From Gammaproteobacteria bacterium (lineage in GTDB: Bacteria > Pseudomonadota > Gammaproteobacteria > Steroidobacterales > Woeseiaceae), in the NCBI GenBank assembly GCA_029863125.1, contig JAOTWB010000004.1:1-64000 (forward strand): a stretch of DNA of 64,000 nt. Direction: 5' to 3'. Of the stretch, positions 38,101 to 39,842 are shown piece by piece. Both the position numbers and the translations under genes were made by a program. Every line of letters starts with the position of its first letter. Within the stretch, counting starts at the first letter, position 1. Under the pieces are notes generated by a model. That model searched no databases and was not told the DNA's origin. It saw only the letters and a program-made list of their open reading frames with translations.

Positions 38101-38123
38101 GAAGCACTGCGGGAGGTGATGCG

Positions 38124-38741
38124 ATGACCCACTACAAACTGACTTACTTCGATATCGACGGCGGTCGGGCGGAGCCCGTTCGAATCGCTTTTCACGCCGC
38201 GGGCATCGAATTCGAAGACGACCGCATATCGTTTGCCGAATTCGGCAAGATGCGCAAGAGCACGCGATTCAATTCACTGCCGGTGCTCGAAATCGACGGC
38301 GCGGCCGTTACCCAGTCAAATGCCATGTGCCATTACGTGGGCAAGATGGCCGGCCTGTACCCCGAGGACGATCTGCAGGCGCTTTACTGCGACGAAGTCA
38401 TGGCTGCCATGGAAGACCTCCTGCACTACATCGTGCGCACTTTCGGCCTGGAGGGTGGCGAACTCAAGCGGGCGAGAGAAAAACTGGTCGACGGCTGGCT
38501 GTCCGTTATTTTGCGCGGGCTGGACGAACTATTGACGCGCGGCGGAGGGAACTACTTTGCCGACAGTCGCATGACCATGGCTGACCTCAAAGTCTTCGTA
38601 CAGACGAAGTCGCTGCTCGCCGGCACGTTGGACCATGTGCCGCCGGATATCGTCCAGCGACTGGCGCCGGGGCTGGTCGGGCACACCGAACGCGTCGAAA
38701 GCGATCCGCGCGTGGTCGCCTACTACGCCTCCCGCCAATAG
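38124..38741 (+). CDS. Glutathione S-transferase (sigma-like)
   Basis: YKLTYFDIDGGRAEPVRIAFHAAGIEFED; LPVLEIDGAAVTQSNA. Confidence 0.92.
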   Translation: MTHYKLTYFDIDGGRAEPVRIAFHAAGIEFEDDRISFAEFGKMRKSTRFNSLPVLEIDGAAVTQSNAMCHYVGKMAGLYPEDDLQALYCDEVMAAMEDLLHYIVRTFGLEGGELKRAREKLVDGWLSVILRGLDELLTRGGGNYFADSRMTMADLKVFVQTKSLLAGTLDHVPPDIVQRLAPGLVGHTERVESDPRVVAYYASRQ

Positions 38742-38785
38742 CAGCCATTCAATCGATGAGGCTCCCGGTTACACGAAACCGCAAG

Positions 38786-38819
38786 GGGAACGCCGCAGCC
38801 ATCCAGCTCCGGCGTTCCC
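38786..38819 (+). terminator. Hairpin, probable terminator after GST gene
   Basis: GGGAACGCC ... GGCGTTCCC 9-bp stem. Confidence 0.55.
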
Positions 38820-38887
38820 GCTATTCCAGTCTGCGGCGACTACTCCCAATGCGTCCGTGGTGAGCGCTACAGCGCCGAACTACGTTT

Positions 38888-39322
38888 TTAGGACAGAGCA
38901 GGGCCAGCCGTGCAGGAAAAAGTCTCGCCGACATTGATCATTTTCACCTTGCCGGAGTCCGGGTCGATAAAATCGACTGGCTGTCTAAAAGATCCCGATT
39001 TTATATAGGCGCTTTCGATCGTCTTTCCGCTATTGTCTGCGGTACCTGCGAAATCGCCCTCCGGCACATCGAGATCATCAAACTTCTCCCAAGTACCATC
39101 CGTAAACAAAAGGACCACATTCGAGATGTCTTTGTCAGAGGACGCCGTCACGGACGTGCACTCCGCATTAAACGTCGCGTCTATCGTCATTGCCAGACTG
39201 TTAGGGTTGGTTACGTGATTGGGTTTGTGGTCGGCGATCGCTGTATGCGCACTGACCGAAGCTAACAGCATGCCGAGAAGCACCGGCATTATCTTTCTGA
39301 ATACACTTATACTCTTGTTCAT
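38888..39322 (-). CDS. Secreted hypothetical protein, putatively riboswitch controlled
   Basis: Signal peptide MNKSISVFRKIMPVLLGMLLASVSAHTAIA; RBS ggaggggag; lies downstream of GEMM-like RNA. Confidence 0.8.
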   Translation of the reverse strand: MNKSISVFRKIMPVLLGMLLASVSAHTAIADHKPNHVTNPNSLAMTIDATFNAECTSVTASSDKDISNVVLLFTDGTWEKFDDLDVPEGDFAGTADNSGKTIESAYIKSGSFRQPVDFIDPDSGKVKMINVGETFSCTAGPALS

Positions 39323-39473
39323 GAGAACTCCCCTCCAAACATGATTTCCGACTGATAAAAGGACCAGGATCGGTCCCATCCGACAAAGCGCGGCGACGGT
39401 TTGTGCGACGAAAAGGGAGTGCCGTGTGGCCAGGCAGGCCAGGTGCAGCGAACGGTTATTGACTCGTAGTGCA

Positions 39474-39562
39474 TTTTGGCAACTCCGCTATCGTAGGACA
39501 GGTCCCGTAGACCGGTAGTTTTGCGTCTTCATCTTTCGATGAATTTGCCTTTGTCAGTACTG
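39474..39562 (-). ncRNA. Cyclic-di-GMP-I (GEMM-I) riboswitch
   Basis: Minus strand GACAAAGGCAAATTCATCGAAAGATGAAGACGCAAAACTACCGGTCTACGGGACCTGTCCTACGATAGCGGAGTTGCC: GCAAA, 6-bp GAAA-capped hairpin, GACGCAAA joint, CCGG, TAGCGG, AACT/AGTT helix as in the Vc2 aptamer. Confidence 0.85.
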
Positions 39563-39842
39563 CGAGTAGATCACAATTGCACGGCTCAGCGAGGGGGTAT
39601 TGACATAAATGGTATACGCAATGCGTGAGAGAGCCCGTGCAAGTTGTGTCGCAGAAAAGCGACGCCCGACAAGCAAGAAGCGATGTGTCGATTCTTGGTG
39701 ACAGGGACGGTGCACTTTGGGTCAGTAGCGGCCCTTTCCATCACGGAGAATACTTTCTTTTGAACGACTGTTTTTGCGTCTGCACCGGCCTGTGGCGGGC
39801 TTCAGGCAAAGGTCGTTTCCGACACTTTTACTTGCGAGAAAG

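Follow-up and report, generated by a model that had tools for sequence, protein, structure and literature searches.

Comparison of the window (the whole 64-kb stretch of DNA that was analysed) with all Rfam families gave two matches above the gathering score, namely, one tRNA and one c-di-GMP-I riboswitch aptamer (RF01051). The aptamer is followed on the same strand, with 152 nt to the ATG and no intervening gene, by the gene for an exported protein of 144 residues (Table 1). The neighbour past this gene, encoding a glutathione S-transferase (38103-38741), is convergent, and the segment 38785-38845, which includes a hairpin past the stop codon, folds at -33.3 kcal/mol. Because of this hairpin and of the convergent neighbour, the 38888-39322 gene appears to be monocistronic. 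An earlier sequence-only reading of the window had proposed that the RNA can control this gene alone, as supported by our analysis, the gene being a real open reading frame and the sole downstream gene on that strand. No sigma-70-type promoter was found for the riboswitch-gene unit.

Table 1. Coordinates of the riboswitch, its target gene, and associated leader elements in the window, and of the hairpins found at related loci
Feature	Position	Strand	Basis or remark
c-di-GMP-I (GEMM-I) riboswitch aptamer	39475..39559	minus	RF01051 match; orthologous aptamer, 84.1 bits
Aptamer 5' strand CUGACAAAG, candidate partner of 39380-39388	39549..39557	minus	9-bp complement; includes the G20-equivalent (ligand-contacting G)
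Downstream block CUUUGUCGG, candidate anti-aptamer strand	39380..39388	minus	Part of 25 nt that do not vary between the two leaders
Terminator-like hairpin GGGACCG-AUCC-UGGUCCU, then UUUAUC (short U run)	39357..39377	minus	Fold, -9.2 kcal/mol
Shine-Dalgarno GGAGGGGAG (strong), upstream of the ATG at 39322	39328..39336	minus	Sequence
ORF of the exported 144-aa protein, undescribed family	38888..39322	minus	Domain 'SNVVLxFxDG...GTGxNxGKxIxGVWIKSG'; homologues
Hairpin 3' of the gene, 10-bp outer stem, G+C-rich, likely transcript end	38785..38820	minus	Fold
Entire conserved unit, spanning the promoter region, the riboswitch, the gene, and the 3' hairpin	38818..39737	minus	blastn, 921 bp, 82% identity with the G023 contig
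Tandem terminator-shaped hairpins	L042:1111-1237, L043:1594-1719, L044:1219-1338, L048:2053-2139, L061:1856-1987, L068:368-489		Immediately upstream of the gene's relatives, in three families of the order
Single, diverged (weaker) hairpin versions	L040:2449-2496, L041:660-709, L047:1325-1367		76-258 nt upstream of the gene; fourth family

The minus-strand sequence quoted in the sequence-only reading is present at the position where that reading placed it, and its assignment to the c-di-GMP-I class was confirmed by the RF01051 covariance model. The match scored 84.8 bits (E = 2.8e-15 by cmscan), which exceeds the gathering score of 35 more than twofold, and the alignment is complete (model positions 1 to 87 of 87). 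All consensus pairs are standard, and both the P2 stem, with its GAAA tetraloop, and the P3 stem are present. This covariance evidence, which is far beyond chance, shows the element to be a true class-I c-di-GMP riboswitch aptamer of the ordinary type. It differs in nothing from the Rfam family, including the c-di-GMP-type G, and the regulated gene alone is new. The c-di-GMP-I-GGC family (RF03167) belongs to the same clan, but the window's aptamer matches RF01051 best. The P1 helix could not be fixed, as the best pairing differs between the window's leader and that of the orthologue described below. In total, the genome from which the window originates contains four c-di-GMP-I-type RNAs, two of the other three matching RF03167 best, and 22 GGDEF domains above the Pfam cut-off.

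The 144-residue protein has an N-terminal signal peptide ending in AIA-DHK, as read from the sequence. No family was identified in Pfam or NCBIfam up to E = 1, and comparison with PDB sequences returned chance matches only (best E, 0.82), in agreement with the earlier failure to assign the protein to a family. An AlphaFold model built from two sequences had a mean pLDDT of 39 and was therefore not used in a fold search.

An orthologue with 79% identity is encoded by a Woeseiaceae genome of the same genus (G023; MAG Site_A34, contig JABDOQ010000032.1), and it is also preceded by a c-di-GMP-I aptamer (84.1 bits). No similarity between the two contigs was detectable by blastn on either flank of the shared block, 38818-39737. 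Since this 921-bp block is shared while the flanking genes differ, the cassette has been kept or moved as a unit. A profile of the protein, refined to a domain of 81 positions, detected relatives in 11 of 398 genomes of the order (counting that of the window), whereas a search of 291 genomes of the class added none. One distant homologue, a small exported protein from another family of the order (L046, genome G103), has an 80-bit c-di-GMP-I aptamer directly upstream. The pairing of the riboswitch with the gene is thus not an accident of one assembly, as it is shared by the G023 orthologue and by a distant homologue from another family. The search for the same RNA upstream of homologues, suggested by the sequence-only reading, was positive for these two loci but not for most of the other relatives. 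A second c-di-GMP-I RNA is present on the G023 contig (L037:530-639, 56 bits), about 4.2 kb from the first, and the gene that follows it encodes an HbpS-like haem-degrading-protein domain.

c-di-GMP-I RNAs were found in 54 of 60 related genomes. At the best-scoring loci of the order, the next gene most often encodes an M23-type peptidase (MNVVIFGKG...), followed in frequency by Ig/FN3-like lipoproteins and other exported proteins, all recognised from sequence. The 144-residue target fits this pattern of exported or envelope targets. Longer relatives of the protein carry a C-terminal Calx-beta domain. The proposal that the protein is a secreted surface or matrix factor is helped by these Calx-beta domains and by the fact that the other class-I targets of the order are mostly cell-envelope or exported proteins.

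The sequence-only reading had also pointed to a possible terminator in the leader as the expression platform. The hairpin does exist at 39377-39357, but the corresponding segment of the G023 leader folds at -0.5 kcal/mol only, and the hairpin was not listed by a terminator scan of the window. An intrinsic terminator was accordingly rejected as a conserved expression platform, the stem being lost in the orthologue. The best-conserved feature of the two leaders past the aptamer is instead the 25-nt stretch containing CUUUGUCGG. The 9-bp helix that this block could form with CUGACAAAG is identical in G023 and was equalled by about 1% of shuffled spacers for each leader; it displays no covariation, since neither strand varies between the two leaders, the only ones that could be compared. 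The RNAalifold consensus structure of both leaders contains the helix alongside P2 and P3, without competition between them, so that perhaps only the P1/J1-2 side is blocked. The unconstrained fold lies below the aptamer-forced fold by 5.9 kcal/mol in the window and by 4.7 kcal/mol in the orthologue, a gap that ligand binding could pay. Three other leaders of the same order (L008, L018, and L035) contain a downstream complement of 8 to 10 nt to the aptamer 5' strand, which suggests, without proving it, that an anti-aptamer design is recurrent among c-di-GMP-I leaders of the order. Pairing of the aptamer 3' strand (GGAGUUGCC) with downstream GGCACUCC was rejected, since 46 to 76% of shuffles equalled it; it had looked promising because both partners of one pair in that helix change from one leader to the other. 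The folding energy of the whole leader was not below that of shuffles (z = -0.43).

A c-di-GMP-responsive riboswitch very probably controls the 38888-39322 gene, in line with the aptamer match, its recurrence ahead of homologues, and the GGDEF domains of the genome. From its predicted place in the 5' leader of an mRNA that carries this gene alone, it would make the output of the small exported protein depend on the cellular level of c-di-GMP. The ligand would fold the aptamer; in its absence, 39557-39549 would pair with 39388-39380 instead, thereby remodelling the leader. High c-di-GMP would raise expression (ON output), and the protein would function on the cell surface or in the matrix when the cells are sessile. 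Given the rest, this combination of an ON output and a surface or matrix role is slightly favoured. The ON sign itself, for which the odds are little better than even, is favoured by likeness to Vc1, located upstream of gbpA in Vibrio cholerae, where high c-di-GMP has been reported to raise expression (PMC4744006). In both systems, an aptamer of the same class is separated from the start codon by a long leader, predicted in the case of the window, and a single exported, surface-related protein is encoded downstream. They differ in bacterial order and in the proteins, which are unrelated, GbpA attaching to N-acetylglucosamine-bearing surfaces (PMC4744006).

An OFF switch, in which the ligand-stabilised aptamer frees ACUCCC (39420-39415) to mask the Shine-Dalgarno sequence or allows the 39377-39357 hairpin to end transcription, has in our view somewhat less than an even chance. 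Regulation of both signs is known in this aptamer group, Cd1 of C. difficile being an OFF example (PMC9262584), and the window's leader has a terminator-like hairpin and a Shine-Dalgarno sequence that is largely paired when the aptamer is forced to form. However, the two leaders share neither a terminator nor a common Shine-Dalgarno sequestration: the stem is not kept in G023, and the Shine-Dalgarno sequence is not clearly masked there. The same divergence at the terminator, with no platform proven to be conserved across both leaders, would be compatible with a relic whose aptamer sequence is intact but whose regulation of the gene has been lost. We regard such a loss as very unlikely, since the aptamer is almost unchanged in both genomes although the spacer diverges, and since the association of riboswitch and gene recurs in another family.

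A at the G20-equivalent marks cGAMP sensors, whereas G marks c-di-GMP aptamers. The ligand-discriminating position (RF01051 model position 11), which we take to be G20 of Vc2, is G in the aptamers of both the window and G023. c-di-GMP is the expected ligand because this position is G, and the ligand class proposed by the sequence-only reading is further backed by the covariance score. The class-I fold accommodates both ligands, a G20A form having been crystallised with 3',3'-cGAMP (PMC6274999), and the discriminating position is occupied by A in at least one congeneric relative (L014). With G in both the window's aptamer and that of the orthologue, recognition of 3',3'-cGAMP (GEMM-Ib) in place of c-di-GMP is nonetheless extremely improbable. 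The L014 aptamer itself (G015:C21:299899-299985; AAAAAGCAAA) is perhaps a cGAMP sensor.

Most other relatives of the gene have no c-di-GMP-I RNA ahead; instead, they are preceded by two similar hairpins with T runs (consensus GTGGAR-CCCACAGGGCG..CGCRGCGTGGG-TTTTT). The two hairpins are 44 to 88 nt apart, and the 3' arm of the second lies 31 to 40 nt ahead of the start codon. Covariance model R1, built from six copies, matched only these genes in 248 genomes, apart from one weak unrelated match. In an alignment of 14 hairpin copies, the weak unrelated match included, 95.5% of the cells are paired and six pairs are altered on both sides. The covariation score was equalled by no shuffle, for an alignment that was fitted to the structure and whose rows are related. 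Comparison of all tandem hairpin loci but L068 with Rfam revealed no family even at E = 1 (for L061, at the gathering score only). The RfaH ops element, which may resemble the hairpins in GCGTG, was set aside as an explanation. The hairpin pairs may be tandem attenuators. On a reading to which we give somewhat less than an even chance, this rare family of exported domain proteins would be governed, within the order, by leader RNAs of two unrelated kinds. These would be c-di-GMP-I riboswitches, found in this genus and in one further family, and, in other lineages, an uncatalogued tandem pair of covarying terminator-shaped hairpins that serves in attenuation or antitermination.

The Woeseiaceae are a marine family, and in the literature library searched no paper was found that links them with riboswitches. 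The locus adds a conserved riboswitch-target pair for Woeseiaceae and singles out an undescribed family of exported proteins as surface factors probably controlled by c-di-GMP. The riboswitch class is well known, and the window's aptamer teaches nothing new about it; the novelty resides in the target gene, its rare undescribed family, and the tandem hairpins of its relatives, which would matter more than the riboswitch if proven to be a regulatory RNA. At L068, the gene following the hairpins is interrupted by the contig end. The relative encoded by genome G068 is seemingly split at a (DS)n-coding repeat across G068:C361 and G068:C371 (L068 and L045), with the leader and the domain on separate contigs.
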